Origin: Leucobacter viscericola
Lineage (GTDB): Bacteria; Actinomycetota; Actinomycetes; Actinomycetales; Microbacteriaceae
Assembly (NCBI RefSeq): GCF_011299575.1
Contig: NZ_CP049863.1
Span: 124,001-188,000 of the forward strand
DNA: 64,000 nt
Direction of reading: 5' to 3'
Positions 1 to 19,262 of this stretch are shown here, in pieces. Position numbers and translations under genes: made by a program. Each line of letters starts with the position of its first letter. Positions within the stretch are counted from its first letter, which is position 1. The notes under the pieces were generated by a model. It had not been told where the DNA came from. It saw only the letters and a list, made by a program, of their open reading frames with translations, and did no database searches.

Positions 1-153
1 TTTGGCGTTTTGTACGTCGTCCCAGGTCGGCAGGTCAGTCGCCTGCGCGGGAACGGGCGTGAAGTGTGCGGGTGCGGCCAGCGTGATTGCCAGAGCGGCT
101 GCAAGAATTCCGCGCACCCAAAACTTCTTGCGTGCGGTGGTGTGCTTAGCCAT
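1..153 (-). CDS. Secreted protein, N-terminal fragment (possible NlpC/P60-type hydrolase)
   Basis: Only the first 51 codons are inside the window; the gene runs off the left edge. Translation from the ATG at 151-153 starts MAKHTTARKKFWVRGILAAA and continues with a hydrophobic alanine-rich stretch ending near PVPAQA, a typical Sec signal peptide with a basic n-region. The segment after it (DLPTWDDVQNAK) resembles the start of the mature part of actinobacterial NlpC/P60 peptidoglycan hydrolases, but the catalytic domain is outside the window, so the function is inferred from a short match only. The upstream 154-265 stretch should hold its promoter; I could not assign one. Confidence 0.6.
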   Translation of the reverse strand, partial: MAKHTTARKKFWVRGILAAALAITLAAPAHFTPVPAQATDLPTWDDVQNAK

Positions 154-265
154 ATGATCCCAAACGGTAACTCAATTAAATGTCCGGAACGAATCTATCG
201 AGGGTTTGCCGAAAAAACCGTGAGTCAGATTCGCGTTTTCCTGAGAATTTGTCAGATTCGAAGTT

Positions 266-1051
266 TTAGGTGCTGAGGCGGAACAGTGATCTCGAGCCAA
301 GAATGCTGGTTCCGATGACTCCGAACTGTCCCGCATTCAGCAGAAGGCCCTGGTTTGAAGCGGCCACTGACACAACCGCGAGAACAATCGCAGCCGCGAT
401 GAGAGTCCAACTCAGCATTGCCATCCCGATCGACACCGTGCGTGTCAGTAGCGGTGTTCCCCGCGAGGTTGACGGCCGAATCAGTGTGGCAATCGCAAAC
501 GCCACGATCCCGAGGGCGATCGCGCCCAGCACGTCGCTCGGGCGGTGCCAGCCATACGCGAGTAGCTGCCAACCAACAGCCGAGAGAATCGCCGCCCCAA
601 CGAGCGCCACGATGGCACGGATCTTCGTTGGCACTGCCCAAATGATCGCCGCCACGAGCACGGTAAACACCGTCATGTGGCCACTGGGAAAGGTGTTTGC
701 CGCGTCCAGCTCAAAGAGCCCGGGTCGATCCAATAGCTGTAGCTTCAGCAGCTGCGAAGCGAGGATCGCGAGCGCAGAAATGACGACAATGCCCACTGCA
801 CGAACAATGCCGTGCACGATCCAGGCAAGAATTCCAATGGCCAACAGTGCGACACCCACGGAGGGGGTCGACACCAGGTTGAGAGGTGCAGGCGGATCAG
901 TCGTGAACCTGGCGGCCTCGAGCACACTGGCCTCAGCCTCCTGCCCGAGTGCGCTCTGCACGCCAAACACATAAGAGCCGACACCGAGTGCCGCCCAAAA
1001 GAGTGTTGACCAGAGGGCCCTCAGGCGCCTGCTTGTAAGGGCTCCGCTCAT
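266..1051 (-). CDS. PAP2-family membrane phosphatase
   Basis: A 261-residue polytopic membrane protein of the PAP2/lipid phosphatase superfamily, which dephosphorylates lipid phosphates such as phosphatidate or undecaprenyl pyrophosphate at the membrane. Visible motifs are KLQLLDRP (motif 1), FPSGH (motif 2) and WHRPSD (motif 3, HxxxD), separated by hydrophobic helices. The residues that should read SR seven and six positions before the motif-3 histidine read QL, so the conserved motif-3 arginine is not evident. The start at 1051 was chosen because it is preceded by a purine-rich GGGGGAGAGG ribosome site and begins MSGALTSRRL; a longer reading adds 51 residues of unlikely composition. It lies 165 bases downstream of the P450 gene on the same strand. 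Confidence 0.8.
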   Translation of the reverse strand: MSGALTSRRLRALWSTLFWAALGVGSYVFGVQSALGQEAEASVLEAARFTTDPPAPLNLVSTPSVGVALLAIGILAWIVHGIVRAVGIVVISALAILASQLLKLQLLDRPGLFELDAANTFPSGHMTVFTVLVAAIIWAVPTKIRAIVALVGAAILSAVGWQLLAYGWHRPSDVLGAIALGIVAFAIATLIRPSTSRGTPLLTRTVSIGMAMLSWTLIAAAIVLAVVSVAASNQGLLLNAGQFGVIGTSILGSRSLFRLST

Positions 1052-1216
1052 CGCCTCTCCCCCACGCCGTCCTTCTCCCAAAGCTGTGCCGCATGGGGTG
1101 AAGTAATCACGAAGACCTTTCGTCAGCAACGGGGCGGTGGAGTCGTGCAGTCGCTGGCGACGGGCACAAAAATTCATACTACTTGTGGCGTCTGAGTGAA
1201 TCATCGTGAACTAGGG

Positions 1217-2389
1217 CTAACTGAGTTTTCCCAAACGCACGGATTGATAACCGGGAATGAGGACCCGCCGAGACGGCTCGCGGTGTGTGACTGTCAGCGG
1301 GGCACGATGTTCCGCCGCAGCTATGGCGCCCAACACCAAGCGGATCTGTGTCATCGCCAGGGGTGCTCCAATGCAAAAGTGCGGTCCTGCCCCAAACCAC
1401 AACTGTTTGAGTGAGGCGGCTTTTGAAGATTGTGGATCAAACCCCTCAAGCCCCCGGTTGCCCCAGTAGGTTCCGAGGATAACACGATCGCCGGTTTTTA
1501 CCCGCTGCCCACCGATGTGCGAGTCGGCTATCGCGCAGCGGAGCATAACCGGAGAGGGGGTAACAACCCGCAGCGCCTCAGCGATGACCATCTCGCTCAG
1601 CTCGGGCTGAGCAGCAAGACGCGCAAGCCAGCCGCTGTCGGAAAGCAGGCACACCATTCTTGGGATAAAAGCCACAAGCGTCTCTGTTCCTGCAACCACA
1701 AAGGCGCCGACGATTCCGCGAGACTCATCACGGCTAAACCCGAGCGCGCGCATCCTGCCCGGCACGGTTTTCTCGTCGCCTGCGTCGTAGGCTCTGTCTG
1801 CGTGCGCGCTGATGCCCGCAAGAACTTCTCGCGCCCTGCGGAGTTGCGCGGACGACATTCTCGGACGTGTCAGCGTTACAAAGGATGTGACTGACGTGAC
1901 ACTGCGAAAAAACTCATCGTCCGTTGCGCTCTCGGGCAGCCCAACAAGGTTGCTAATGGCGATGCTGGCGTAGTGTCTCGCCTCAGCCACCACATCGACC
2001 GTCTCGCCGCGAACCAGGCGCTCAGTGAGTCTTCGGGTCACCTCACCAAGACTGTTGTTCACCAGGTCATTCACGTAGCTTGGTGTGAAGAGAGGTGCCA
2101 GGCGGCGGCGTAGCTGTTGGTGATCCTTCCCCTCCATGTTGAGTAACACGCTGGGGCCAAGCAGAGGAGTCCAGATGTCAGACGGTGCGCCCTTGCCAAT
2201 CTTAGAAAAACTGTTGGTATCGAGAAGTGTGCTTCGAATCAGGCCGGCATCGAGCACAACGACCCCCAAGCCTGGCACCCGAGTGACGGGTTTCTTGAGC
2301 GCGGACAAGGCAGGAAACGCGAGCGGATGAGCAGCCCGCATGACACGGTCTTCCCACTTGTCTGTGACCGACATGTTCGATCCGCTCAC
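1217..2389 (-). CDS. Cytochrome P450
   Basis: A 390-residue soluble bacterial P450. It shows the I-helix motif AGTET (about 233-237), the ExxR pair EALR (about 271-274) and the heme-binding loop FGAGPHFCIG (about 332-341, Cys339 as thiolate ligand). Such enzymes hydroxylate or otherwise oxidise a small molecule using electrons from a ferredoxin and reductase; neither is encoded nearby. The GTG start at 2389 overlaps the TGA of the upstream condensing-enzyme gene by four bases (GTGA), so it is translationally coupled; an internal ATG at residue 6 is an alternative. It is the last gene of the putative biosynthetic cluster and probably a tailoring oxygenase. The substrate cannot be read from sequence. 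Confidence 0.9.
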   Translation of the reverse strand: MSGSNMSVTDKWEDRVMRAAHPLAFPALSALKKPVTRVPGLGVVVLDAGLIRSTLLDTNSFSKIGKGAPSDIWTPLLGPSVLLNMEGKDHQQLRRRLAPLFTPSYVNDLVNNSLGEVTRRLTERLVRGETVDVVAEARHYASIAISNLVGLPESATDDEFFRSVTSVTSFVTLTRPRMSSAQLRRAREVLAGISAHADRAYDAGDEKTVPGRMRALGFSRDESRGIVGAFVVAGTETLVAFIPRMVCLLSDSGWLARLAAQPELSEMVIAEALRVVTPSPVMLRCAIADSHIGGQRVKTGDRVILGTYWGNRGLEGFDPQSSKAASLKQLWFGAGPHFCIGAPLAMTQIRLVLGAIAAAEHRAPLTVTHREPSRRVLIPGYQSVRLGKLS

Positions 2390-3402
2390 AGTCGAATCAC
2401 CATCACGCCGAGACTGATGCCGCCGGCCAGTCCCAACAACACAACGTTGCTGCCCGACCCGATCTGACCGGACTCGCGAGCACGGTGCAAGTGCAGCGGC
2501 AGCGTTGCCGAGGCCAGGTTTCCGTGCCCGCTCACGGTCTCGATTGAACGGTTCGCAGGAATTCCAAGCCGTTTCAGTACGGCTCGTTGCGACGCAACCG
2601 AAACCTGGTGAGCGGCGAAGAGATCCACATCGTCGAGGCTAAGGTCCACCGCCTTCAGCGCGTCGTGCACGAGATCGAGGCCAACGGAGTCGAACGCTTT
2701 CTGTAGCTCATTGCCGTTCATATCAAAGTAGCTACCACCCTCTGCGTGGGGGTTCATCGAACCGCCCGTGCCGAGTGTACCCACCGGCCAGAATTGGGAG
2801 TGGGCCTGGAAGTGCGTCTCGAGAATGCCCACGCCAGCTGGGTGCTCGGTTGAGATGGCCTCCATAAGGATGGCGGCCCCCGAATCGCTCATCGTGTATC
2901 CCGGGATCGAGCGCACGAACTGGGCCTGATCCTCGATCTGCCAGCGCACGGCGTGAGACGGCTGCTCCCCCGTCACCACGAGCACCCGTTTGTACTGCTG
3001 GGCGCGAATCAGCGAATCAGCGACCTGCATCCCGTTCAGCATGCTGTTGCAGGCATTTTTGACGTCCATCACCGGGCAGTTGAGGCCAAGCTTGTGGGCC
3101 ACAATATGACTCGTGGCCGGTTCGATCAGGTCTTGGCTCGCCGATGCAAAAATCAAGAGATCAGGATCAGGCGATCCCGGTGTCAGCACTTCTCGTGCGG
3201 CCGCCACCGCCAGGTCAGAGGTCTGCCATCCCTCCGGTCGCACGTGCACCTGGTTCACACCCGTTAGACGCCTGATAAGACCCGAAGCAATGTTGACGTG
3301 GGGGTTTGTTGTGCGCAATCGCAGCTCAGACTCCTCTGTGCTGCGGGTGGTCGGAGGAAGGTACACACCAATGTCTGCAATGCGCGATGCGGGAGAATTC
3401 AC
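2386..3402 (-). CDS. 3-oxoacyl-ACP synthase III-like condensing enzyme
   Basis: A 338-residue thiolase-fold enzyme of the KAS III/FabH type, which makes C-C bonds between an acyl thioester and a second acyl or malonyl thioester. The expected catalytic triad is present: Cys118 in VKNACNSMLNG, His265 in FAAHQVS and Asn295 in GHGNLASAT. No acyl carrier protein or fab genes are beside it, and the start of the protein (IADIGVYLPP) fits specialised FabH/OleA-like relatives more than housekeeping FabH; that is an impression, not a test. The start is GTG at 3402. A TAGTCT hexamer sits six bases upstream of it with no clear ribosome site, so a separate leaderless promoter in the 88-base gap after the GT1 gene is possible. 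Confidence 0.85.
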   Translation of the reverse strand: MNSPASRIADIGVYLPPTTRSTEESELRLRTTNPHVNIASGLIRRLTGVNQVHVRPEGWQTSDLAVAAAREVLTPGSPDPDLLIFASASQDLIEPATSHIVAHKLGLNCPVMDVKNACNSMLNGMQVADSLIRAQQYKRVLVVTGEQPSHAVRWQIEDQAQFVRSIPGYTMSDSGAAILMEAISTEHPAGVGILETHFQAHSQFWPVGTLGTGGSMNPHAEGGSYFDMNGNELQKAFDSVGLDLVHDALKAVDLSLDDVDLFAAHQVSVASQRAVLKRLGIPANRSIETVSGHGNLASATLPLHLHRARESGQIGSGSNVVLLGLAGGISLGVMVIRL

Positions 3403-3490
3403 TGCTTTAGACTAGACGACACCGTATGCCGAATCGGTGAGTTCGGGTGAAAGCCATTTGAGGCAGCTGCACCTCGGCGGGTCATTCGCA

Positions 3491-4792
3491 TTAGCCGGTC
3501 TCTGCGACCACGGCCTCCGCGACGGTAGCCGCGCCCGAGGTGGCTGTTACGAGCTCGGCAAATCTGCGCCGTTGTGCGTGTCCCCGCTGCATCGCTTGAG
3601 AGTTCAGCGCACGCTGCACGGCTGCGGGGAGATGGGACAGCTTGTCTACCCGCTCAGCAAGCCCGTGAAATGACAGGCGGGCGGCGCTGTCGAACTGGTC
3701 GTAGTCAACCGGATGAACGATCGTCGGAACAGCTGCCTCGAGCGCCGAATACATCACGCCTGCTCCCCCGTGGTGAACGACCAGGTCGTACCGGCTCAAA
3801 TCACGATATGAGACCGTCGGCACAACCACGAGGTTGGGAGGAAGCGGCTTGACGGGTGAGAGAACAGTTCCGTTACTTCCCTCGCTAAATACGAACCCAG
3901 TGTGTGGTTCCAGCTTTGCCAGCTCGATAACCGCAGCGAGAACTTGCCGCTTATAGTCGGGCAACTGGGTTCCGAAGGTTATAAGAACACGCTGTTCGTG
4001 GCCGCTCAGACTCGTGAGCGGCTCGGTCGTGGGGCCGGGAAGCGGCGTGCTCGGCGGCGGCGTGGCCTGAGGCGGCGTATAGAGCACGGGCCCCGCCCAT
4101 CGCAGGCTGTCCGGCCAGCTGCGCTCAAACTCAAGTTCTTCTAGTCCCAGCGCCCAGATACGCTCGTCGGAGTAAATGACCTCGGAGCCATCAGGTCTGA
4201 AGGGGCGCGTGATGCCAAGCGGAGCAAGCGTTTTTCTGTTCAACCGCACGGCGGCTCGCTTAAACGTGCGGACGCTTGCTCGAAGCGTCGCCTGCCCAAC
4301 TGACGTGAAGTGATTTGTCGCCGGCGTTAAGCCACCCAAATATGACGGTGGCCCCACTCTGGTTTCGAGCACGCAGGGTGACGGCAAACTGGTCCACCAG
4401 CGGGCCCCCACTTCGCGGGCGGCAAATCCTGCGACGGGAACCGTGAAATCCACCAGGGCAAGCTCAGGCGGCTCCTGCGCGTACAGTGCCTTAATGTCGG
4501 TTGAAAAGCCCGCCATGAGGGCGAGATTTTCTCTGAGCTGAGCCAAGAGGCGGCGAGGATTTCCGCGCACCCGCTGAGAAGGATTTGCGATTCGTTCGAC
4601 GGCCGCGTCCTGCCCATGCAGCACCGTCACAGCGGTGAGTCCCGCGGCCTCAATCGATGCGCGTGCGGCCTCCGTGCTTATGACCCGCACAGGACGCCGC
4701 GAGCGCTCCGCGATGGCCACCCCGATTCCAAGGATGGGATGAAGGTGCCCCGCCATGGGAGGAGCAACGACGTCAATCGGTCGTTCGTTCAC
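3491..4792 (-). CDS. GT1-family UDP-sugar glycosyltransferase (MGT/CrtX-like)
   Basis: A 433-residue protein of the glycosyltransferase 1 (GT-B) fold, which moves a sugar from a nucleotide sugar to a small lipophilic acceptor. The N-terminus has the PPMAGHLHPILGIG acceptor-domain motif, and the C-terminal domain has the donor-binding signature VVHHGGAGVMYSALEAAVP followed by HPVDYDQFDSA. A proline/threonine-rich linker (about residues 245-265) joins the two domains. Its start overlaps the end of the upstream small gene by four bases. Acceptor and sugar are unknown; macrolide and carotenoid glycosyltransferases are the closest functional types. Its presence with a GT2 enzyme suggests the cluster product is glycosylated. 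Confidence 0.85.
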   Translation of the reverse strand: MNERPIDVVAPPMAGHLHPILGIGVAIAERSRRPVRVISTEAARASIEAAGLTAVTVLHGQDAAVERIANPSQRVRGNPRRLLAQLRENLALMAGFSTDIKALYAQEPPELALVDFTVPVAGFAAREVGARWWTSLPSPCVLETRVGPPSYLGGLTPATNHFTSVGQATLRASVRTFKRAAVRLNRKTLAPLGITRPFRPDGSEVIYSDERIWALGLEELEFERSWPDSLRWAGPVLYTPPQATPPPSTPLPGPTTEPLTSLSGHEQRVLITFGTQLPDYKRQVLAAVIELAKLEPHTGFVFSEGSNGTVLSPVKPLPPNLVVVPTVSYRDLSRYDLVVHHGGAGVMYSALEAAVPTIVHPVDYDQFDSAARLSFHGLAERVDKLSHLPAAVQRALNSQAMQRGHAQRRRFAELVTATSGAATVAEAVVAETG

Positions 4793-5403
4793 CGAGGGGT
4801 TCCTGACTCTGGAATCGCGCCTGGTTCTGAACGTTGCAGGTCGGCAAGCTCAGCAACGACTACCCGATGAAACTCAGAACTTTCCAGATAATTGAGGTGG
4901 TTCGCCCGGACAACGGCATCGGGGGTCGGGAAAAATCGCCGTGACAGCCAGTCTCGGTCTCCCACAACGGAAACACAGGGAGCCTCCGGGACGCTGCGTG
5001 CGACGGGCCCGTATGCGACAACCCTCACTCCACGCAGTTCATCGGCCGACAATCGAAGATTGCTGAGCAGCTCAAGCCCACAGCTGCCCGCAAGAACGAG
5101 CGTTCGGTCGGCCCTGGCTAACATGTCCAGCACCGGGCGACGCCACTGGGCAGCAAAGCCCTTTTGGCGTGAGACGAGGTATTGGCGGGTGTTGCGAAAG
5201 CTGGCCGTGAGTAATGGTGTCGGCCGCCAGTCAGTTTCAGGCGGCGCCTTGTCTCCGTGCATCGGATACGGGAAGTTGTGGGGCACAATCGCGGTCGGCG
5301 CGATGGGCAGAGACAGTGCGAACTGGCGCTGCGCGGGGCTCAGCACCGATTGCCGAGGGTCACTTTGCCCCGTCAGAAAGGCAAGCTGAAGTGAGTCGCT
5401 CAT
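4789..5403 (-). CDS. Small hydrolase-like protein of unknown function in the biosynthetic cluster
   Basis: A 204-residue protein that I do not recognise as a named family. It contains AGSCG (Ser107 in an [AG]xSxG-like elbow), then VVGDRDW (Asp149/Asp151) and RANHLNYLES (His169). The order Ser-Asp-His and the spacing fit a compact alpha/beta-hydrolase, but the normal HG oxyanion strand at the N-terminus is not obvious. No signal peptide or membrane segment is seen. The start at 5403 (MSDSLQL) is favoured because its ATG overlaps the TGA of the preceding GT2 gene (ATGA); a reading 18 codons longer lies wholly inside that gene. Its own stop overlaps the GT1 start, so it is coupled on both sides, implying a role in the same pathway. 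Confidence 0.7.
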   Translation of the reverse strand: MSDSLQLAFLTGQSDPRQSVLSPAQRQFALSLPIAPTAIVPHNFPYPMHGDKAPPETDWRPTPLLTASFRNTRQYLVSRQKGFAAQWRRPVLDMLARADRTLVLAGSCGLELLSNLRLSADELRGVRVVAYGPVARSVPEAPCVSVVGDRDWLSRRFFPTPDAVVRANHLNYLESSEFHRVVVAELADLQRSEPGAIPESGTPR

Positions 5404-6578
5404 TCGGCCACCGAAAATGTGCCGTCTAGGCGAAGGCGCCAGCGTTGGCCACGCCAAATAATTGTTGGCTTCACCATTGCGTGCATCAGATGCAGTGGTG
5501 TCAGTAGTTCAGCCGTTATCGAGGCAATGGGCCGCCACTGAACGCCGCCTGAAATGCGGCGTTGCAGAGTCGCAATACCCGCGGCGCGCATCATCAGTAG
5601 CCCAAGCACCACACCGAGTGGACGTAATTCACCGCGGAACAGTTTTGCAACCCCGAGCAAAAGGCTCCCGGCAAGTGCGAGGGGCGGCAAACCGTACATC
5701 GCAGCTATGAAGGTTCGTGCACCGGGTGACTCACGAGCAACGAGCACAAGCGCGAAGCGCATCCATCTGTGCATCAGCTCCGTGTAGTGCTGCGCTCCGC
5801 GAACGTCCGTTGAGACATGCTGAGGATAGGGCGTCTGAATGATGCAGCCGCCGTGGTCGTGCAGAAGTCGCGCGAGTGCAAGGTCGTCTGTGAGCTCGCG
5901 CTCAATGGCAGCGAAGCCACCAATTCGCTCGAGCGTCTCACTACGCAGCGCGTAGGCCATACCGTTAATGCTGCGTGGCTCACCTAGCGCCGACAGCGCG
6001 ACGTAGGTGAGTGCCGACGAATTGTTGACGAACTGACTCAGCACCTTTCCTGGAAACCCGGCGGCGTGATCGTACTGCGGCAATCCGGTTGATAGATCGC
6101 ATCGCTCAAGAGCCTCAATAAGTGCAGCTGCACCTTCTGCGGTCAGCTGCGTGTCATCGTCCAACACCAGAAAAGTGCCGGATCGATCCCGAGTTGCCAG
6201 GCCCAGTTTGAACGATTTTGGGCTCACCCCAGTTGGAGCGGGTGGGCACAACACGATGTTTATTTGAGAGTTCGGATTGTCCTTCTGAAGACGCTCGGTG
6301 ACCCGGCGCCCTTCTCTGTCGGCCTCGTCAACGAGCCAAACGAACCGGGCATCGGGCACTATCGAGAGATTGTGCCCGAGTGTGCGTTCCAGCCCGGGAT
6401 CACCGCTCAATATGGGCTGAACGACAGTTACGTCTGAGCAGTGCTTCGCCTCATCTGACCGCTCCAATTGGGGAGCAGGAAAGCGGCGCTTCGCCCGCAA
6501 AGCGAGGGCAAACTTCGCGACGAACGTCACCGCATAGCCGCCGACCATTGCGCCGACCGCCCACCTCGATACACGCAC
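5400..6578 (-). CDS. GT2/GT21-type membrane glycosyltransferase (ceramide glucosyltransferase-like)
   Basis: A 392-residue processive-type glycosyltransferase with an N-terminal membrane helix, a cytosolic catalytic domain and C-terminal membrane helices. The catalytic aspartates are visible as LDDDTQ (140-142) and ELTDD (231-232), followed by LMHRWMRF (about 268-274), the equivalent of the (Q/R)xxRW motif with Leu in place of Gln/Arg. The C-terminal WRGQRWRLRLDGTF is reminiscent of ceramide glucosyltransferases and the hopanoid-associated HpnI. It probably transfers a sugar to a membrane lipid. The start is GTG at 6578, one base after the stop of the reductase gene; the end overlaps the next start by four bases. 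Confidence 0.8.
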   Translation of the reverse strand: MRVSRWAVGAMVGGYAVTFVAKFALALRAKRRFPAPQLERSDEAKHCSDVTVVQPILSGDPGLERTLGHNLSIVPDARFVWLVDEADREGRRVTERLQKDNPNSQINIVLCPPAPTGVSPKSFKLGLATRDRSGTFLVLDDDTQLTAEGAAALIEALERCDLSTGLPQYDHAAGFPGKVLSQFVNNSSALTYVALSALGEPRSINGMAYALRSETLERIGGFAAIERELTDDLALARLLHDHGGCIIQTPYPQHVSTDVRGAQHYTELMHRWMRFALVLVARESPGARTFIAAMYGLPPLALAGSLLLGVAKLFRGELRPLGVVLGLLMMRAAGIATLQRRISGGVQWRPIASITAELLTPLHLMHAMVKPTIIWRGQRWRLRLDGTFSVAE

Positions 6579-6579
6579 G

Positions 6580-7527
6580 TCAGATCCTCATCTCGTTCGC
6601 CAATTGGTTGAGCCCATCCAGGGTAGTCACTTTTGGATCTCCCAGAATCTCTCGCGCTAACGAAATGTCGAACGTCTTTGAATACCCAAAAAGCGAAACG
6701 CCGTAGCGAGTGATTGGTGGTTCGCCGGGCAGACGCAGGGTGCGCCAGACCGCTTCGCACACGCTCGCAAAGGCCATGGCCTGCCTGATCGAAATGTGTC
6801 GAGTGGGAAGCGGAATGCCGAGACGCGTCAGCAAATCGGTGAGCACCTCCCAGAGGTCGACGGGAGTTCCGTTGGTGAGGTTGATACTCCGTCCGACTGC
6901 CTGCGGGGCTGACATGGCGGTCAACAGGTAGTCGACGAGTGTGTCGATATGGATCAGATCGCACTGAACGGGCGTTGCTGGATCCCCCAGGCGAGGAAGG
7001 CGTCGAGCCTGAGCTGCACTCAGGATCCGCGGGAGCAGTGTTGTGTCTCCCGGGCCAAAAACCGCCCGGGGCCGAGTAATCACCCAATCACCCGTGTAGG
7101 CGTGAATGAGCTGCTCGGCCTCCCACTTGGTCTGTGAATACAGGTTCAGAAACTCTGGGCCGGCAGGTGATTCCTCAGTCAGCTGAGTCTGATGCGCGGC
7201 CCGGTAGAAGATGCTTGTGGTTGAGACATGGACCAGGCGAGGCCGACCCTGGCGCTCACAAAAATCGATGATGTTTGCCGTGGCCGTGACGTTTTGCTCG
7301 TGATACTCGCGGGCCGTGCCCCAGGGGGTTGCCCTCGCTGCAGCGTGCACGACTACATCTGGATTCCAGTCCAGCGTAATCGGTTGTGCCAGGTCGCACT
7401 GCCGGTAGTCCCCCATATCGATTTGACGCCTACCGACACCGAGAACCGTGTGATGGCCATCCTGCTGCAGGCGACGCATCAGGGAGCCGCCCACGAACCC
7501 CGACGCCCCCGTTACCAAAACCCTCAT
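6580..7527 (-). CDS. NAD(P)-dependent epimerase/reductase (extended SDR, 3-beta-HSD-like)
   Basis: A 315-residue extended short-chain dehydrogenase. The Rossmann motif GASGFVGG is at 7-14 and the catalytic YSQTK pair (Tyr130, Lys134) is preceded by VHVSTTSIF, which supplies the active-site Ser/Thr. Members reduce ketones, oxidise 3-beta-hydroxyls or epimerise nucleotide sugars. In a cluster with a condensing enzyme and an adenylating enzyme, reduction of a beta-keto intermediate is as plausible as sugar modification; the sequence alone does not decide. Its start overlaps the end of the adenylating-enzyme gene (ATGA). Confidence 0.85.
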   Translation of the reverse strand: MRVLVTGASGFVGGSLMRRLQQDGHHTVLGVGRRQIDMGDYRQCDLAQPITLDWNPDVVVHAAARATPWGTAREYHEQNVTATANIIDFCERQGRPRLVHVSTTSIFYRAAHQTQLTEESPAGPEFLNLYSQTKWEAEQLIHAYTGDWVITRPRAVFGPGDTTLLPRILSAAQARRLPRLGDPATPVQCDLIHIDTLVDYLLTAMSAPQAVGRSINLTNGTPVDLWEVLTDLLTRLGIPLPTRHISIRQAMAFASVCEAVWRTLRLPGEPPITRYGVSLFGYSKTFDISLAREILGDPKVTTLDGLNQLANEMRI

Positions 7528-8978
7528 GCCGTGTGCTCCCCCACCGGACTTGCACCGGCTTCCCCTGACACCGGTTGCAAACGGGTGATCCGACGGAGTT
7601 TTGCCCCTGGCTGCGGCTCAACCCACGGCGCAAATATCAGCCGCGGTGGCTGCGCAAGTAACGTGTTCGCGAGGTTTGTGAGCTCTGCCTGCACCGCGTC
7701 CTCAGCGGCGCGATCTGCATTGAGTAGACGAATCACCGTGCTGGCAGATTGAACCTCTTGAGAAGGTGTTTGTTCTGCAGTTTCCTGCTCGTAACGCCAG
7801 TCGTCGAAGTGCCTTCCGGCGAGAGACATAGTGCGGCGCAGCACGTCAGGAAACACCGTAACCGCGCTGCCCCCAGACGTCGACGGCCACTGCACGACTT
7901 CGTCGGCTCGCCCCTCTACTCCGGCCAGTGCGAGTGCCACACTTCCGCAGGGGCACGGTTCTCCCTCACGAACACGCAGGACGTCGTCTAGCCGGTATCT
8001 GACGATCAACTGAGTCGTGCGTTGCAGATCGGTAATCACGGGGTGAAACCGCGTGCGTTCGGGATCTAACCACTCGGGCTCCACAATGACGCGCTCCTCG
8101 CACATGTGGAGTGTTCCCTGTGAACAGGTCACGGCAAGCAGCCCCTCGGTGGCCTGGTACACCTGTGACACGGGAGCGCCCCAAACCCCAAACATGAGCT
8201 CAGCGTCTGCCGGTTCTAGCACCTCGGCGACTGACACGACCTGGTTCGGCCGGACTCGCAGCCTGCCCTCGCCCTGCGCATCGGCGAGCCTCTTCAGCAC
8301 ACTCGCTGGAGCCACAATGATGTTGGGCCGGGATCTGTTCAGCGCCTCGATATGGGCGTCGATGGGCTCCAGAAGATCACAAAACTCGAAACTGACGCGA
8401 CGCGACGCGACGGACTCGTACAGGTTGCTGTTTGCTCTCAAGAAAAAACTGATGCGCACGGGTTCTGCCCATGGCGTGAGTAGGCGGCGCAAGCTGTCAG
8501 AAGAGAGCACTCGGGCCAGGATCGTTCCCGCCCAGAGTGCCTGCTCGCGTGAACTGACGAGAAATGCTCCTTGCGTGCCAGAGGTGCCGCTTGAGAGGCC
8601 CACCGTGAGATCGTTTCCGATGGTGGGACTAAAATCTCGGTTGCGTTCTGCGGTCCTCGCAACCTCAAGAGCATGCTCCAGCGTCACGCTGCGCGTGTTC
8701 ATGCCGGCGAAGTTCCTGCGAACGTCGGGTTTGCTGATGATCGGAAGGCTACCGTGATGGTGAGTCAGCTCGACGTAGTAGTTTGCACGCGGCATCGAAG
8801 TGCGGGCAAATCTTCGCCACCGCCGATCCTGAAATCGTTTCAGCTGTTGGCGAGTGCGGAATCGGTACCCCCAGCGCGAGCGAACGAACGTGATGACCAG
8901 CATCGCTGAATCGCTCCAAGAGCGGCCGGCACTGGGCGCCTTCTGGGGGGAAACGACGGTGTTGTGTGTCTGACGCAA
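7524..8978 (-). CDS. Adenylate-forming enzyme, F390 synthetase/PaaK-like
   Basis: A 484-residue member of the ANL (acyl-CoA synthetase/adenylate-forming) superfamily related to coenzyme F390 synthetase and phenylacetate-CoA ligase. The AMP-binding loop GLSSGTSGTQG lies near residues 127-137; YQATEG and VRYRLDDVLRV are the usual downstream motifs, and CPCG resembles the Cys-rich turn of PaaK-like proteins. It would activate a carboxylic acid as an acyl-adenylate or thioester, supplying the pathway with its starter or acyl unit. The TTG start at 8978 has a GGGGAG ribosome site four bases upstream; an internal ATG at 8903 (MLVITFVRSR) is an alternative. It lies 17 bases after the TrmH gene, so transcription may begin further upstream. 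Confidence 0.8.
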   Translation of the reverse strand: MRQTHNTVVSPQKAPSAGRSWSDSAMLVITFVRSRWGYRFRTRQQLKRFQDRRWRRFARTSMPRANYYVELTHHHGSLPIISKPDVRRNFAGMNTRSVTLEHALEVARTAERNRDFSPTIGNDLTVGLSSGTSGTQGAFLVSSREQALWAGTILARVLSSDSLRRLLTPWAEPVRISFFLRANSNLYESVASRRVSFEFCDLLEPIDAHIEALNRSRPNIIVAPASVLKRLADAQGEGRLRVRPNQVVSVAEVLEPADAELMFGVWGAPVSQVYQATEGLLAVTCSQGTLHMCEERVIVEPEWLDPERTRFHPVITDLQRTTQLIVRYRLDDVLRVREGEPCPCGSVALALAGVEGRADEVVQWPSTSGGSAVTVFPDVLRRTMSLAGRHFDDWRYEQETAEQTPSQEVQSASTVIRLLNADRAAEDAVQAELTNLANTLLAQPPRLIFAPWVEPQPGAKLRRITRLQPVSGEAGASPVGEHTA

Positions 8979-8995
8979 GCTACTCCCCTACTCGC

Positions 8996-9811
8996 CTATC
9001 TCGTCGCGTAAAACGCAACCGCGCTCGAGGCGGCGACGTTGAGCGAGTCGACACTGTTCATCATCGGAATTGTCACGCGCCGGTCGAGCTGGCTATCGGT
9101 TGCTCGTGTCAGGCCGTGCCCTTCGGAGCCGAAGACCAGGGCGAGCGAAGCGTGGTCCTCCGCGACGAGATCGTCGAGGGTGATCGAGTTTGCCCCGAGA
9201 GACATGCCCGCCACGATAAAGCCCTCATCTTTGAGCAGTTGCATGCCGCCGCGCGGCCAGGGATCGATCCTTGTCCACGGCACCTGAAACACCGTGCCCA
9301 TGCTGACGCGCACGCTACGGCGATACAGCGGGTCAGCGCAACTCGGTGTCACCAGAACGGCATCGACCCCCATGGCGGCGGCATTTCTGAACGCGCTGCC
9401 GACGTTTGCGTGGTCACTCAGGTTCTCAAGCACAGCAATTCTGGAGCGTGGCTGTCGCGAGGCGCGCAGCAGCTCTATCGGATCGCGATCGACGGGCCGC
9501 TGCATCGACGCAAGCGCGCCCCTGTGCATGTGGAAGCCTGTCAGCTGCTCGAGCTGCGCGGACTCCCCCACAAACACGGGCACATCCGGGTAGTCCGCAA
9601 GCATCGGTTCAACCGTGGGGAGCCACTCTTCGAGCAGCAACAGTGAGCGCGGTTGATGCCCAGACCGGAGCGCACGTTCAATAACCTTCGGCGATTCAGC
9701 GAGGTACAGCCCCTCCTCCGGCTCGCGCACGCGCCGCAACGCAACATCGGTGAGCTGCGTGTAATCGGCCAATTCGGGAGCGTTGAGATCGCTGATCCGC
9801 GTCACCCTCAC
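8996..9811 (-). CDS. TrmH/SpoU-family RNA 2'-O-methyltransferase
   Basis: A 271-residue SPOUT methyltransferase that methylates the ribose 2'-OH of rRNA or tRNA using S-adenosylmethionine. All three family motifs are present: ENLSDHANVGSAFRNAAA (motif 1), VFGSEGHGL (motif 2) and IPMMNSVDSLNVAASSAVAFYA (motif 3, trefoil knot). The N-terminal third carries the substrate-binding domain typical of RlmB/TsnR-like proteins. The GTG start overlaps the stop of the upstream hydrolase by four bases. The exact RNA target cannot be assigned. Confidence 0.9.
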   Translation of the reverse strand: MRVTRISDLNAPELADYTQLTDVALRRVREPEEGLYLAESPKVIERALRSGHQPRSLLLLEEWLPTVEPMLADYPDVPVFVGESAQLEQLTGFHMHRGALASMQRPVDRDPIELLRASRQPRSRIAVLENLSDHANVGSAFRNAAAMGVDAVLVTPSCADPLYRRSVRVSMGTVFQVPWTRIDPWPRGGMQLLKDEGFIVAGMSLGANSITLDDLVAEDHASLALVFGSEGHGLTRATDSQLDRRVTIPMMNSVDSLNVAASSAVAFYATR

Positions 9812-10715
9812 GCGGTAACCTCGCTCTTCGAGGAGCGTGAGTGCTCAAGTAAAAACTCCGAGATGAAGGCGACGGCGTCTTCCACCGCCTCGTAGTGTAC
9901 GAGGTGACCGGTGCCGGGAATAATCCTCAGTCGCGACCCGGCAATGCGATGGTGCAGCTCCAGCTGTTTCGGCAGCTGGGTTATGTCGTCTCGCTCCCCC
10001 GCGATGAGCAGTGTCGGTCGGTCAAAGTCTGCGGCGTGCTCAATGACAGTGTTTGACACCGACGCCCGGAATGCCTGCAGGAGAGTTGAAGGGTCTGAGA
10101 ACGTGCTGAAGTACCTGGCGTGCTGCCCGTGGATCCAGGCGCGCAGGTCAGCGTCGCCCGTTTTTGCCATGACCTCGCTCATGCCCCGCACAATCACGGG
10201 GTTGCCGAGCAACTGCCTAGCGGCGCGTTCCGGAAGCAATTCTGCGGCGCGGTAGTAGCCAATCGCCAACTGTGTGAGCGCGGCCTGGGGCCCCTCTAGC
10301 GCCGGCGCCGAGATGGGGTTGATCAGTATGATCCGGCTCGCATCGAGCCCCCCAGAGACCGCAGCCGCCACGACCAGCGACCCGAATGAGTGTCCGAGGA
10401 TCGCAAACCCCTCGGGGGCGACCTCACGGGCAAAGGCACGCAGCCACTCGCCATACAGCTCAATGTTGTGCTCGCGGTTCGGGATCGCGGGAGTTTCACC
10501 AAAGCCGGGTAGATCAGGCACGACCGTGCGCACGCCGGGCAGAGCCTTCGCAACTCCCCGTGCAATCGCGTCGAGGCCGTGGTGATCCCCCGAAACCCGT
10601 GCACCAGGATCAGCGTCGCGGTATCAGCGCCGCCTTCTGCGGCACCGTCAGCACCGTACTGCCAGGCACGAGTTTCAATGCCGAGCGTGGGAACAAGAAG
10701 AGGTGCGTTAGTCAC
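9808..10715 (-). pseudogene. Alpha/beta hydrolase interrupted by a one-base frameshift
   Basis: The protein is split between two frames. Frame one, from a GTG at 10715, reads MTNAPLLVPTLGIETRAWQY and then LILVHGFRG, the oxyanion strand of alpha/beta hydrolases. The remainder, in another frame, reads DHHGLDAIARGVAKALPGVR into TVVPDLPGFGETP and then GHSFGS (nucleophile Ser), AGERDD (acid) and GTGHLVHYE (His). The switch falls at the run of five C's at 10587-10591; a sixth would restore one frame of about 303 residues. All catalytic residues are intact, so either a recent mutation or a sequencing error is possible. It is the first gene of the run leading into trmH. Function beyond hydrolase is unknown. 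Confidence 0.8.
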
Positions 10716-10814
10716 GAAACGATCCTACCGATGGGGGCTGGCAGGCGGCTGCGCCACGTCGACCCAACACGAGCCGCCCGCAGTCGATAACATCAAAGGA
10801 ACGAAAGGACCCCT

Positions 10815-11513
10815 GTGACCTCCTCTACCCCGCTCTGGGCAGCCAATCTTGCGGTGTTCGACACCGAAACAACGGGCGTCGACACCGCCCACGCACGCAT
10901 CGTCAGCGCGACGGTTGCGCTCCTGGGCGCCGAGGGTGAGGTGCTCGAACGCTACGACTGGCTGTTGAACCCGGGTGTCGAAATTCCAGCGGCCGCTCAG
11001 AGGGTGCACGGCATCAGCACCGAGATTGCGCGGGCGAGTGGCATCGACGCTGCGGTGGGTGTTCAGCAGATTATCGAGCAGCTCGCAGAGATGATCGAGC
11101 GCGGGTTCCCGGTGGTTGCCTACAACGCCCCCTACGACCTCACGCTGTTGCGCGCGGAAGCCGCAAGGTACGGCCTGGCTTGGCCTGAGAGCTTCGCTCC
11201 CGTGATCGATCCGCTGATCCTCGACAAGCAATTCGACCGCTACCGAAAGGGCAAGCGCACGCTCGAGGCCGTCGCTGCCCACCACGGCGTGGAAATCGGC
11301 ACCGCGCACGACGCTGGAGACGACGCGATTGCGGCGGGCCGTGTGCTGCAGTGCATCGCGCGCAAGTATGCGGACGTGATCCCGAGTGAGCTGGACGAGC
11401 TGCACGCCGCGCAGATCACCTGGGCCGCAGCGCAGGCCGCGAGCTTCCAGGAATACATGCGAAAGGCCCGCGATCCCCACTTCGTCGCGGAGGGCGGCTG
11501 GCCGCTGCGCTAA
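10815..11513 (+). CDS. DnaQ-like 3'-5' exonuclease
   Basis: A 232-residue DEDDh exonuclease of the DnaQ/epsilon fold. Exo I is DTETTG (about 14-19), Exo II is AYNAPYDL, and Exo III is the HDAGDD segment with the catalytic His and Asp. It likely trims DNA or RNA 3' ends; a stand-alone epsilon-like protein may proofread or help repair, but its partner is not evident. The GTG start at 10815 follows a GAAAGGA ribosome site at 10802-10808. It is divergent from the hydrolase gene and ends before a strong bidirectional terminator. Confidence 0.9.
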   Translation: MTSSTPLWAANLAVFDTETTGVDTAHARIVSATVALLGAEGEVLERYDWLLNPGVEIPAAAQRVHGISTEIARASGIDAAVGVQQIIEQLAEMIERGFPVVAYNAPYDLTLLRAEAARYGLAWPESFAPVIDPLILDKQFDRYRKGKRTLEAVAAHHGVEIGTAHDAGDDAIAAGRVLQCIARKYADVIPSELDELHAAQITWAAAQAASFQEYMRKARDPHFVAEGGWPLR

Positions 11514-11545
11514 GCGGGTGGGCTAGCAGGCAACGAACCAAAACA

Positions 11546-11583
11546 AAAAGGTGGTGGCGATCCGAAGATCGCCACCACCTTTT
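11546..11583. terminator. Bidirectional intrinsic terminator between exonuclease and rpmE2
   Basis: A perfect 17-bp inverted repeat (11546-11562 with 11567-11583) encloses a CGAA tetraloop. The arms begin with four A's and end with four T's, so a U tract follows the stem whichever strand is transcribed. It lies between convergent genes and can end both. Confidence 0.92.
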
Positions 11584-11598
11584 GTGTAAAAGCTTTGA

Positions 11599-11847
11599 CT
11601 AGGCGCCGAAACCCTTGAAGCGCTGGTTGAACTTCTCCACGCGGCCGGCGGAGTCCATGATGCGCTGCTTGCCCGTGTAGAACGGGTGCGAAGCGCTGGA
11701 GATCTCAACGTCGATGACCGGGTAGGTAGCGCCATCGAGCTCGATGGTCTTGTCGCTGCCGAGCGTCGAACGGGTGAGGAACGTCTCTCCCGAAGCGAGG
11801 TCGCGGAAGACGATTGCGTTGTACTCGGGGTGGATGTCGGTCTTCAT
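11599..11847 (-). CDS. rpmE2: 50S ribosomal protein L31 type B
   Basis: An 82-residue L31 of the zinc-independent type B: starts [20 protein letters not shown], contains [28 protein letters not shown], and lacks the CxxC pairs of zinc-binding L31. It is part of the large ribosomal subunit. Type B copies are often repressed by Zur when a zinc-binding paralogue exists; I found no convincing Zur box upstream, and this may be the sole L31. The gene is monocistronic, with a clear terminator. Confidence 0.95.
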
Positions 11848-11974
11848 GAGTGTCCTTATATTCGTGAGAGATGCTGCGATTCGCGCACCGAAGTCTTGCG
11901 GCTTGTCCGCGCCAAGGTTCTACTTTAGCAGAACTCGCCGCAAACATGCTTCCTTATAACGTATTAGTTCTAGC

Positions 11975-12760
11975 TTAGGGCCTAGCGATCGCAGCGTAGC
12001 GACCATCTTGCACCGTCAAACCGAACGGCATGCCGAATGTCGCCTCGAGATTCTCCGCGGTGAGTGTGTCGGCGATCGGCCCTGCGGCCTGGATCTGCCC
12101 GTCGCGCAGCATCAGCACGTGGGTGAACCCGGGCGGCACCTCTTCGACGTGGTGGGTCACCATGATCATCGCCGGAGAGGAAGGCGACTGCGCAAAGCCA
12201 GAGAGCATCTGCAGCATCCGCTCGCGCGCGCCAAGGTCAAGGCTCGCGCTGGGCTCGTCGAGCAACAGCACCTCGGGGTCGGTCATGACCGCGCGGGCGA
12301 TGAGCGCGCGCTTGCGCTCTCCGTCGCTCAGCGTGCCGAAGGTGTTGTCTGCGAGGTTGCCAAGATCCCACTCGGCGAGGATTCGCTCGGCCTGTCGCAC
12401 GTCGATGTCGTCGTAGTGTTCGTTCCAGCGACCCTCAACCGAGTACGCCGCCGTCAGTACGAGGTCGCGCACGATCTCGTTTGCGGGGATCCGGCGCGCC
12501 GTTGCTGACGAGACAAATCCGAGGCGGTTTCGCAACTCAAAAATGTCGACGCGTCCGAGACGCTTCTCCAGCACATCAACAGTGCCGGTTGTCGGGTAGT
12601 CGTTGGCGGTTGCAAGCTTCAACAGCGTCGTTTTTCCCGCGCCATTCGGCCCGAGAATCACCCACCGCTGCGAGTCTTCAACGGTCCAGTTAATACCGTT
12701 CAAGATCGGGCGACGATTGCGAAGGTACGTGACATCGTTGAAGCGCAACACATTGACCAT
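11975..12760 (-). CDS. ABC transporter ATP-binding protein
   Basis: A single ABC ATPase domain of 261 residues. Walker A is GPNGAGKTT, the signature is LSDGE, and Walker B with D-loop is LLLDEPSASLD, followed by the H-loop VTHHVEE. No permease gene is adjacent, and the closest type is the ModF/YlmA-like cytosolic ABC proteins, so the partner is unknown. The start at 12760 (MVNVLRFNDVTYLRN) was chosen because it begins at the first strand of the ABC fold; an upstream extension of 13 residues is possible. It is divergent from serB with a 68-base gap. Confidence 0.85.
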   Translation of the reverse strand: MVNVLRFNDVTYLRNRRPILNGINWTVEDSQRWVILGPNGAGKTTLLKLATANDYPTTGTVDVLEKRLGRVDIFELRNRLGFVSSATARRIPANEIVRDLVLTAAYSVEGRWNEHYDDIDVRQAERILAEWDLGNLADNTFGTLSDGERKRALIARAVMTDPEVLLLDEPSASLDLGARERMLQMLSGFAQSPSSPAMIMVTHHVEEVPPGFTHVLMLRDGQIQAAGPIADTLTAENLEATFGMPFGLTVQDGRYAAIARP

Positions 12761-12828
12761 AGGCAGTAGCCTAACGAGCGGCGCGGCCTCCGTGCGCAAG
12801 CCACCCCGTCATCTCTAGACTGGATCGC

Positions 12829-13467
12829 ATGAGCCTCTCCCCCCTAATCGTTCTCGACTGCGACTCCACGACCATTCAAGACGAGGTGATCGAGCTGATT
12901 GCTGACGTTGCGGGCACCCGCGAGCAGGTCGCCGAGGTTACCGAGCGGGCAATGCGCGGTGAGTTGGATTTTTCGGAGAGCCTGCGCGAGCGAGTGGCGA
13001 CGCTCGCTGGAACCCCAGAGTCCGTATTTGCTGACGCCTACAGTCGTGTGCGGCTCTCCCCCGGCATCCGCGAGCTCATCGCCGAGGTGCGGGATCGCGG
13101 CGGCAAAGTGGGCGTTGTGTCGGGTGGTTTCCACGAGGTGCTGGATCCGATCGCTCAGGATCTGGGCCTCGACTTTTGGCGCGCCAATCGGCTCGAAGTT
13201 GCAGACGGTGTGTTGACCGGCCGCACCGTTGGCCCGATCATTGACGCTGTCGCCAAGGCCGAAGCGCTCGCCGAGTGGTCCGCGGAATCTGGGATCCCGC
13301 TTTCCGCCTCGGTGGCGATCGGTGACGGGGCGAACGATCTCGAGATGATGAAGGTTGCGGCCCTCGGCGTGTCGTACAACGGCAAGCCGGTTGTGCGGGA
13401 TCAAGCAGACGTATCGATCGAAGACGATCTCGCGCGCGTGATCCCGCTGCTCGACCGCCTCGGTTAG
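12829..13467 (+). CDS. serB: Phosphoserine phosphatase
   Basis: A 212-residue HAD-family hydrolase that converts O-phosphoserine to serine, the last step of serine synthesis. The motifs are DCDST (nucleophile and acid-base aspartates, about 10-14), SGGF (motif II), a lysine in DAVAKAEAL (motif III) and GDGANDLEMM (motif IV). It lacks the N-terminal ACT domain of some actinobacterial SerB proteins. Its stop codon overlaps the stop of the convergent gene at 13464-13467. Confidence 0.9.
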   Translation: MSLSPLIVLDCDSTTIQDEVIELIADVAGTREQVAEVTERAMRGELDFSESLRERVATLAGTPESVFADAYSRVRLSPGIRELIAEVRDRGGKVGVVSGGFHEVLDPIAQDLGLDFWRANRLEVADGVLTGRTVGPIIDAVAKAEALAEWSAESGIPLSASVAIGDGANDLEMMKVAALGVSYNGKPVVRDQADVSIEDDLARVIPLLDRLG

Positions 13468-14273
13468 AAGTTATTCAGCATCTCTGTATCGCTCGGGATC
13501 ACGCCGTCCGCGAGCAGTGATGTGCCGAGCTTCTTCAGCGCGGTCAGCGCGACGTTTTGAGGCATCGGTCCGTAGGAGACCCGGGCAACACCCAGGGACT
13601 CGTACTCCGCGGCGCTGAGCGCACCGGGCAGGCCAATCACGCTGATCTTGCGCACCCCGATGCCCTCCACGAGCCGGCGAGTGACATCCGCGTCGAGAAT
13701 TCCCGGTACGAAGACGCAGGTGGCACCCGCGTCAAGGTACGCGCGCCCCCTCTCGATCGCGTCTGCGATGATGTCGTCAAGCGGGCGGTCTCCGCCGCGC
13801 ACAAACGCATCGGTGCGGGCGTTCAGCGCGAACGAAACACCCTCACGCTCCCCCGCTTTCACAACGTCGGCCACGAGCTTTGCAGACTCCGCTAGCGGGC
13901 GAAGCTGGTCCTCGATGTTCGCGCCTGAAACCCCGACGCCGATAGCACGACGAACGGTCTCGCCGGCGTCGCCAAAACCGCCGTCGAGATCTGCCGAGAC
14001 CGGCAGATCGGTCGCCGAGACGATACGACCTACGGCCTCCAGCATGAGGTGGAGCGGAATCTGTTCACCGTCTGCATAGCCGTGGCTCGCAGCGATCCCG
14101 TGCCCCGCGGTTGCGATGGCGCGAGTACCGGGAAGCTCAGCGACCACACGCGCGCTCACGGCATCCCAGACGTTGACGACCCGAAGAACTTCGGGGGCCT
14201 CGTACAGGGAGCGGAGCGTGGTGGCATCTTCTGCGACGGTTGAACGGGTACGTGGGGCAGGAATGTGAGTCAT
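13464..14273 (-). CDS. Isocitrate lyase/PEP mutase superfamily protein
   Basis: A 269-residue TIM-barrel protein of the isocitrate lyase/phosphoenolpyruvate mutase family. Supporting segments are VNVWDAVSARVV, the metal-binding SADLDGGFGD region, ANIEDQ and ALNARTDAFVRGG. The family's usual KKCGH catalytic loop is absent, as in the oxaloacetate decarboxylase-like and uncharacterised branches, so the activity is not assigned. The gene stands alone, convergent with serB and followed upstream by the fabG-like gene. Confidence 0.8.
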   Translation of the reverse strand: MTHIPAPRTRSTVAEDATTLRSLYEAPEVLRVVNVWDAVSARVVAELPGTRAIATAGHGIAASHGYADGEQIPLHLMLEAVGRIVSATDLPVSADLDGGFGDAGETVRRAIGVGVSGANIEDQLRPLAESAKLVADVVKAGEREGVSFALNARTDAFVRGGDRPLDDIIADAIERGRAYLDAGATCVFVPGILDADVTRRLVEGIGVRKISVIGLPGALSAAEYESLGVARVSYGPMPQNVALTALKKLGTSLLADGVIPSDTEMLNNF

Positions 14274-14320
14274 GCCCTCACCCTACGAAGAACCGCCACA
14301 AAGCGGAAGGGGGTTGTGCG

Positions 14321-15031: not shown

Positions 15032-15167
15032 GGGAGACCCTTTCTGTAGGAAAAGTGCGACTCTCACCCTATCGTTCGACCACACGATCGGGGTTATGGT
15101 GCGGTGTTTCTTGGGGCCAAGGCCCAGCAGAACGGCGTAGGCTATTCGAGGTACGAAGAAGGAGCGC

Positions 15168-15584: not shown

Positions 15585-15826
15585 GCGCCGCGGTGTTCCC
15601 CGGGTTGAGTCTCGGGGGCGACGCTGGCCAGCGCTTTGAGTGTTCGCGGGCCGGGTGTCGTGAGGCAGCTGACTGGGCGATCCTGTGGCGCAATCCGAAG
15701 ATTCACGCCGAAGAACGACGGAAGACCTGGCTTGCCTGTGAGGATCACCTGCCGGTGCTGCGAGAGTTTCTGTCTGATCGTTCGTTCCCGATTGAAGTTG
15801 TGACCGTAGGAGAACTTGATGTCTGA
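15581..15826 (+). CDS. Small putative zinc-binding protein
   Basis: An 81-residue protein starting at a GTG that overlaps the TGA of the DUF3099 gene. Cys21 and Cys26 (CSRAGC) and Cys53/His56 (CEDH) suggest a C-x4-C...C-x2-H zinc site; the flanks are rich in Trp and Arg. I do not know a function; small proteins of this type commonly sit between DUF3099 and SURF1 genes in relatives. The coupled overlaps on both sides support that it is translated. Confidence 0.7.
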   Translation: MSAAVFPGLSLGGDAGQRFECSRAGCREAADWAILWRNPKIHAEERRKTWLACEDHLPVLREFLSDRSFPIEVVTVGELDV

Positions 15827-19114: not shown

Positions 19115-19262
19115 GTGTGCGTGCAACTCCTGGGTTTGTGTTTGGGAGCGCATCTCCCGCTAGACAACCTTGCTAGTCTACGTCACTTTAACTTTGTACT
19201 CACGCTGAGCGCTCAAGATTAGTAGGCTTGGGGGCAGGCTACACACAAGAAGGAGTCTCAAG

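Follow-up and report, generated by a model that had tools for sequence, protein, structure and literature searches.

The 64,000-nucleotide stretch of Leucobacter viscericola DNA analyzed here (the window) carries seven open reading frames between positions 8978 and 1217, all on the minus strand and at the coordinates that the earlier note had given. In the order 8978 to 1217 they encode a PaaK/F390-type adenylate-forming ligase (7524..8978; 484 amino acids from the first TTG, the true start possibly being internal to it), an OleD-like extended SDR reductase (6580..7527; 315 amino acids), an HpnI-like GT2/GT21-type glycosyltransferase (5400..6578; 392 amino acids), a small α/β-hydrolase-like protein (4789..5403), a GT1-type glycosyltransferase (3491..4792; 433 amino acids), an OleA-type thiolase of the KAS III family (2386..3402; 338 amino acids) and a cytochrome P450 (1217..2389; 390 amino acids). 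The ligase and reductase genes overlap by four nucleotides (ATGA), the reductase and GT2 genes are one nucleotide apart, the GT2 and hydrolase genes overlap by four nucleotides, with the 204-amino acid hydrolase starting at the ATG at 5403 and the longer TTG frame not used, and the hydrolase/GT1 and KAS/P450 junctions are each four-nucleotide overlaps (GTGA). The set had been described as coupled by an overlap or one-base gap at nearly every junction, and this holds for five of the six; the exception is the GT1/KAS junction, an 88-nucleotide gap in the 3402-3491 region. The identical seven genes in identical order recur in three other loci, L064 (Agromyces sp. Root81), L066 and L067; the GT1/KAS junction is a four-nucleotide overlap in L064 and L066 and takes looser values in L067, where gene calls are rough. 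Because of this recurrence, and because the PAP2 and rRNA methylase genes that flank the cluster find no match in any of the three, the grouping is more than chance. Tight junctions are common anyway, being present in 10 of the 36 same-strand neighbor pairs of the window (rough gene calls). Neither an Rfam nor a tRNA scan found anything in the window, and a search for a sigma-70-like promoter in positions 1-11000, which was not expected to be decisive, found none.

The thiolase is assigned to the OleA type by its predicted catalytic residues. C118, H265 and N295 align with the Cys-His-Asn triad of OleA (chains 3fk5 and 3row), and E94 aligns with the OleA catalytic glutamate (Glu117 when residues are numbered as in the tagged X. 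campestris protein). This glutamate is invariant in 14 sequences of the window's KAS type and missing from all eight FabH-like sequences compared, so that a condensing activity of the OleA kind is predicted. The window's KAS type is present in 36 of 398 Microbacteriaceae-level genomes at E ≤ 1e-80. For the reductase the best family match is NF042422 (OleD-type; 181 bits, E 2.8e-53), with the YSQTK and GASGFVG motifs intact; since 181 bits lies under the 580-bit equivalog cut-off, we call it OleD-like only. The P450 matches PF00067 (E 2.1e-14) and retains FGAGPHFCIG with the heme-ligand cysteine, the I-helix acid-alcohol pair in AGTET, and EALR. Retention of the heme cysteine and I-helix pair argues against a pure glycosyltransferase-activator relic, a role for which TIGR04515 gave only 68 of 343 bits.

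The ligase scores 392 bits against TIGR02304 (F390 synthetase-related), above the cut-off of 252, and has no PF00501 match in a Pfam search. Its SSGTSG and KLRRI motifs are intact, and SSGTSG and the C-terminal Lys460 and Arg463 are invariant across 18 aligned ligases. In a Foldseek search with its AF2 model (pLDDT 87.4), the closest solved folds were PaaK-type ligases (E 5.5e-22, TM about 0.5). Both results place it outside the OleC/FadD-like AMP-binding lineage. The fold does not imply a β-lactone product, because the solved PaaK-like relatives include CoA ligases.

The two glycosyltransferases recognized earlier beside the P450 are likewise upheld by family matches. The GT2 enzyme matches PF13506 (Glyco_transf_21; E 6.9e-27) and, below cut-off, the HpnI model (83 bits), and has two hydrophobic segments close to its C-terminus. 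A carotenoid glycoside pathway was rejected, the GT2 match to CruG being only 22 bits and no carotenoid-type enzyme being found among the seven. The GT1 enzyme matches TIGR01426 (macrolide glycosyltransferases; 43 bits) and EryCIII-like_C (31 bits), both below cut-off, and its PDB sequence matches are the rhamnosyltransferase 9ke1 (1.1e-10), YjiC and CalG1. The hydrolase-like protein has no family match in Pfam or NCBIfam. Its Ser107, at the nucleophile position, Asp151 and His169 are invariant in eight sequences, and the top Foldseek match of its AF2 model (pLDDT 86.5), a weak one, is lipase A of B. subtilis (E 8.7e-4, TM 0.45-0.50); from conserved residues and this weak fold match it is predicted to be a small serine-type α/β-hydrolase. 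OleB is a larger α/β-hydrolase of the haloalkane dehalogenase type, and both the absence of a family match and the serine at the nucleophile position speak against placing the 204-amino acid protein in that family. The earlier note counted counterparts of all four OleABCD activities; the OleA-type and OleD-like assignments stand, and the count is three at most, the hydrolase not being counted as OleB.

Which ligase accompanies this thiolase elsewhere? Forty-eight loci carry the window's OleA type, 47 of them informative for ligase type, one being ended by a contig end. OleC is present at 30, an F390-type ligase at 17 (15 non-redundant), and both at none. The exclusion extends to whole genomes: OleC relatives (E ≤ 1e-30) were found in none of the 14 F390-type genomes, the window's included, and TIGR02304 matches above cut-off in none of 25 others (24 OleC-type and that of the cut locus), with both controls detected in each search. 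Thus OleC and the F390-type ligase are mutually exclusive beside one KAS-P450 pair, the P450 adjoining the KAS gene in 47 of the 48 loci, and the earlier placing of an F390-type ligase in OleC's position is supported. This strict alternation suggests that the ligase takes over OleC's step in the pathway. In the KAS tree the F390-type sequences form a single clade (support 94/92), and replacement of OleC by the F390 type is likelier than the reverse, since the OleC sequences fall into more than one clade in the outgroup-rooted tree, a single clade being borderline (AU p 0.053). In this tree the window's KAS is placed apart from those of the other three seven-gene loci, although a single clade is not rejected (AU p 0.256). 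The reductase was exchanged as well: window-type SDRs cluster with E/F-type SDRs (support 99), apart from those of the OleC loci, and one locus, L068, combines an F390-type ligase with an SDR of the OleC-locus kind. Two ligases alternating beside one KAS-P450 pair constitute a natural exchange experiment, which tells which step the uncharacterized TIGR02304 ligases take and yields enzymes for side-by-side testing.

The earlier note knew of no described cluster of this composition. That does not stand: for an Actinoplanes atraurantiacus cluster of OleA, OleC, OleD, a P450 and a glycosyltransferase, PMC7064751 (2020) predicts a glycosylated β-lactone, formed by condensation, reduction, hydroxylation and glycosylation, and OleA activity was tested experimentally there. 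The core idea is therefore already in print, and what is new is the ligase switch to the F390 type; no F390-type ligase in an OleA cluster was described in the titles and abstract openings of the literature searched. Judged by gene content, the Actinoplanes cluster shares with the window an OleA-type thiolase, an OleD-type reductase, a P450, a glycosyltransferase and the lack of OleB, but it has OleC and a single glycosyltransferase, whereas the window has a PaaK/F390-type ligase, a different SDR lineage, GT21-like and GT1 enzymes and a small hydrolase. The same OleA, glycosyltransferase, OleC, P450 and OleD set adjoins the window's OleA type in 24 of the 48 loci. These Microbacteriaceae KAS-GT2-P450-OleC-SDR clusters share the adjacent KAS-P450 pair, in most of them with 52-62% (KAS) and 54-61% (P450) identity to the window; the Streptomyces viridifaciens plasmid pKVP2 has the order KAS-GT2-ligase-P450-SDR. 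Both differ from the window in having OleC, another GT2 family member and another SDR clade. Lipstatin and nocardiolactone are made by oleACD pathways, β-lactone producers without OleB. The window resembles Ole olefin and oleACD pathways in OleA chemistry and OleD-like reduction, and the latter in lacking OleB, but it has glycosyltransferases and a P450 and falls outside the oleACD gene set (OleA, OleC and OleD, no OleB) because OleC is missing; the replacing ligase may work like OleC.

We think it fairly probable that the cluster encodes a hybrid Ole-type pathway, gained as a block, to a glycosylated 2-alkyl-3-hydroxy or β-lactone lipid, in which a PaaK-fold ligase replaces OleC. The product named earlier thus remains the best guess, and both product and ligase reaction are deduced from sequence. 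The thiolase, from its catalytic residues, would perform a head-to-head condensation of two fatty acyl chains, yielding a 2-alkyl-3-oxo acid, which the reductase, by family, would convert to the 2-alkyl-3-hydroxy acid. The ligase, occupying OleC's place in the sister clusters, would adenylate the carboxyl group, after which the neighboring hydroxyl could attack to form a β-lactone or the acyl group could pass to another nucleophile. The P450 may hydroxylate an alkyl chain, the GT21-like and GT1 enzymes may add one sugar or two, beginning at the membrane, and the hydrolase, the least certain part, may trim or transfer an acyl group. The KAS-P450 pair would derive from the OleA-GT-P450-OleC-OleD lineage, and the ligase, reductase and GT2-hydrolase-GT1 genes from another type of cluster, one that centers on a FabH-like synthase. 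In the literature examined, a glycosylated OleA product is only proposed and no isolated one was found. If the ligase does OleC's work, a second subfamily of ligases has evolved the ability to form β-lactones, and OleC-based genome mining would miss F390-type clusters. A bolder version, which we hold only tentatively, makes TIGR02304 a second, separately evolved β-lactone synthetase that displaced OleC together with a reductase swap, fusing two glycolipid pathways; the seven-gene product would be a di-glycosylated β-lactone or 2-alkyl-3-hydroxy lipid, a new structural class, spread among Microbacteriaceae as one block.

A glycolipid without a β-lactone is possible, if on the doubtful side. The ligase would then feed the pathway, or transfer the finished hydroxy acid, activated as its CoA or AMP ester, to a hydroxyl group of a sugar to give an acylated or lactonic glycoside, and the hydrolase, which retains Ser/Asp/His, would be a transacylase or thioesterase. 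TIGR02304 ligases do occur with a FabH-like synthase and SDR and no OleA, and the fold neighbors are PaaK CoA ligases. The ligase's nearest kin outside the group adjoin FabH-like synthases lacking the OleA glutamate and a metallo-hydrolase, so that its native substrate may differ. E-type clusters (L069, L074-L076, from genomes of the same order) share the F390-type ligase and the SDR, GT2, hydrolase and GT1 genes in the same order and have no OleA; unlike the window, they have a FabH-like KAS without the OleA glutamate, a metallo-hydrolase of the AHL-lactonase type and no P450 match. The GT2-hydrolase-GT1 module occurs with OleA in the window and three relatives and otherwise in four loci beside FabH-like synthases. 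What speaks against a lactone-free glycolipid is that this ligase and OleC strictly alternate beside one KAS-P450 pair, which suggests OleC's step. Two adjoining pathways, ligase-SDR-GT2-hydrolase-GT1 for a glycolipid and KAS-P450 for something else, would fit the 88-nucleotide gap and the rough sign of distinct origins in the KAS and SDR groupings, but are very unlikely: the GT1/KAS genes overlap in L064 and L066, and ligase and SDR directly precede KAS-P450 in 11 four-gene loci (9 non-redundant; L060, L065 of Herbiconiux moechotypicola, and relatives). These loci share the window's ligase, SDR, KAS and P450 clades, unlike it lack the GT2-hydrolase-GT1 insert, and have no glycosyltransferase within the test's reach, which leaves glycosylation outside the core pathway. 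Microbacterium, Clavibacter and Curtobacterium are Microbacteriaceae genera. Olefins are reported from these three in PMC7158056, and OleA-type and OleD-like enzymes are present, but an ordinary long-chain olefin (OleABCD) pathway with diverged OleB and OleC is the least credible reading and was rejected, the cluster having no OleB-like family match, a ligase from a different subfamily, and a P450 and glycosyltransferases with no role in olefin formation.

How did the hybrid Ole-type pathway reach this genome? Window positions 2-1053 and 9464-19189 are collinear with locus L121 of a congener, the DNA being about 84% identical. Positions 1054-9463, which hold the seven genes and the 3' portion of the rRNA methylase gene, match no DNA of L121 and are the inferred imported segment. 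The flanking genes, PAP2-family (PF01569; 266..1051, minus strand) and SpoU-type rRNA methylase (PF00588; 8996..9811, minus strand, mosaic), lie outside the pathway: they are absent beside the other three seven-gene loci and are each other's neighbors in congeners. Because 27 of 30 congeners keep them less than 350 bp apart, the seven genes look to have been gained as a single block from another bacterium. GC content is not telling, at 58-63% in the cluster and 58-66% in the next 21 kb; codon use, unlike GC, is a telling sign of import.

The window carries seven minus-strand genes, encoding an F390/PaaK-type ligase (8978-7524), an OleD-like reductase (SDR, 7527-6580), a GT2 glycosyltransferase (6578-5400), a small hydrolase (5403-4789), a GT1 glycosyltransferase (4792-3491), an OleA-type thiolase (KAS, 3402-2386), and a P450 (2389-1217), with family matches for all except the hydrolase. 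The host genome is 3.70 Mb on a single contig. ORF coordinates and family matches bear out the same-strand order proposed in an earlier note; five of six junctions are tight (-4 or +1), and GT1 and KAS lie 88 nt apart.

What type of thiolase is the KAS? The top-scoring solved structures are FabH-type (4dfe, 6e-32), followed by OleA chains (2.4e-24), and because FabH-type proteins outscore OleA, whole-sequence similarity cannot settle the type; the catalytic glutamate settles it. Glu94, Cys118, His265, and Asn295 match OleA chains 3fk5/3row when aligned over the catalytic parts, and in alignments the glutamate is present in 14/14 rows of the window KAS type and in 0/8 rows from other F390-ligase loci.

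A first named-genome scan for this KAS type gave nine loci, and at E <= 1e-80 it was found in 36 of 398 family genomes sampled from a larger group, the window included. Altogether 48 loci were compared, including L056, L066, and L068 from earlier searches and two exact duplicates. The commonest architecture is KAS-GT2-P450-OleC-SDR (24 loci), which recurs without an SDR match in five (one, L088, runs off its contig) and with a second weak ligase match far upstream in L106. AMP-SDR-KAS-P450, where AMP is the F390-type ligase, accounts for 11 (nine non-redundant), and all seven genes for four: the window, L064, L066, and L067. The remainder are AMP-KAS-P450-SDR (L068), AMP-KAS-P450 (L114), and KAS-GT2 followed by a contig end (L097). 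The cluster is a conserved unit. P450 adjoins KAS in 47/48 loci by the same locus test, and a P450 fragment was seen at the 48th in a separate comparison. A second, opposite-strand P450, 30-33% identical to that of the window, lies downstream of many KAS-GT2-P450-OleC-SDR clusters (L084, L087, L100, L102, and others). In L068, a 767-aa protein (8007-10310) between ligase and KAS appears by eye to comprise an ATP-grasp-like and then an acyltransferase-like part.

Beside the same KAS-P450 pair, OleC and the F390-type ligase alternate: OleC is found at 30 loci, the F390 type at 17 (15 non-redundant), and both at none, L097 being cut. Whole-genome searches with an OleC from an L057-type cluster found relatives at E <= 1e-30 in 0/14 F390-type genomes, both OleC controls matching. 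Conversely, TIGR02304 exceeded its cut-off in none of 25 other genomes (24 that carry OleC at their locus, plus the genome whose locus is cut), both positive controls being found; two gave sub-cut-off matches (26 and 21 bits). Most likely, the F390-type ligase takes over carboxyl activation from OleC. Its predicted structure matches PaaK-type ligases, among them NatL2, which forms an ester without CoA; therefore the fold would be capable of the needed acyl transfer. The step may end in a beta-lactone, in an ester, or in a thioester.

The ligase exceeds the cut-off in 17/396 genomes of the order. Three have the seven-gene architecture (window, G439, G298) and G289 that of L068. Four E-type loci (L069, L074-L076) combine FabH-like KAS, metallo-hydrolase, and ligase with SDR-GT2-hydrolase-GT1, the two sets being convergent (L069 4258-11215, L074, L075, L076). 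Six F-type loci (L070-L072, L077-L079) have SDR-metallo-hydrolase-ligase-KAS (FabH-like), several with a GT4-looking gene, judged by eye from the N-terminus only, facing away from the SDR. Two short loci (L031, L033) show SDR, ligase, and KAS, and L073 (G219) neither a KAS nor an SDR match.

The cluster is of mixed ancestry. In the KAS tree, rooted on FabH-like KAS, the 15 F390-type rows form one clade (94/92) inside the OleC rows, a single OleC clade being only borderline rejected (p 0.053); the window KAS sits on a long branch. In a quick tree, 13 window- and four-gene-type SDRs cluster with E and F SDRs (support 99), apart from 25 OleC-locus SDRs and that of L068. Window, four-gene, and L068 ligases form one clade (99/99), with E-type next when rooted on F. 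Because of these three trees, we read the history as stepwise exchange, probably of the ligase first (L068), then the reductase, then GT2-hydrolase-GT1. Window GT2 is 42-44% identical to those of the other three seven-gene loci versus 33-43% for most E-type loci, and the hydrolase 49-51% versus 33-37%; GT1 is about equally distant from both (38-41%).

The 204-aa hydrolase has invariant Ser107, Asp151, and His169 in an eight-row alignment. Its AF2 model is good and best matches minimal lipases among solved structures, only one at E <= 0.001, with TM ~0.5. A sample of 396 phylum genomes yielded, besides the window's own copy, only a single match that was weak and partial. Two hydrophobic segments near the end of GT2 would suit a membrane acceptor.

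The cluster looks like a foreign block. The flanking PAP2 and rRNA methylase genes are <350 bp apart in 27/30 congeners and 1133, 1466, and 2439 bp apart in the others, the last resting on a fragmentary match. Window 1054-9463 has no DNA match in G024, the nearest congener found, with which 2-1053 and 9464-19189 are collinear at ~84% DNA identity; the methylase gene's 3' part is closer to another congener, G011. In codon use, six of seven cluster genes score lower than every one of the 42 other window genes, and KAS lies above four of the 42. GC content does not stand out. No close KAS occurs in 53 congeners (best ~32% identity). Upstream of the methylase gene, an alpha/beta-hydrolase gene (9808-10715, minus strand) occupies two frames (ORFs 10323-10715 and 9808-10533); the same site holds two ORFs in G024 (L121) and one of 305 aa in G011 (L122). 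Elsewhere, a minus-strand surface-protein gene run (58653-62357) encodes SLH and Excalibur domains as well as a putative adhesive domain of ice-binding-like type, and gives a weak tetraspanin-like match; of its three genes, two are as odd in codon use as the seven-gene cluster.

We infer that the pathway runs through acyl condensation, reduction, a ligase step, hydroxylation, and glycosylation to its product. PMC7064751 already proposes the OleC version as a glycosylated beta-lactone cluster; the window cluster is a variant of this scheme, differing in its ligase and its additional glycosylation genes. An OleA-type KAS-GT2-acyl-CoA ligase-P450-SDR set also occurs on the 115-kb linear plasmid pKVP2 of Streptomyces viridifaciens (L119, CP090842.1 46484-61452), in the gene order published for the Actinoplanes atraurantiacus cluster.
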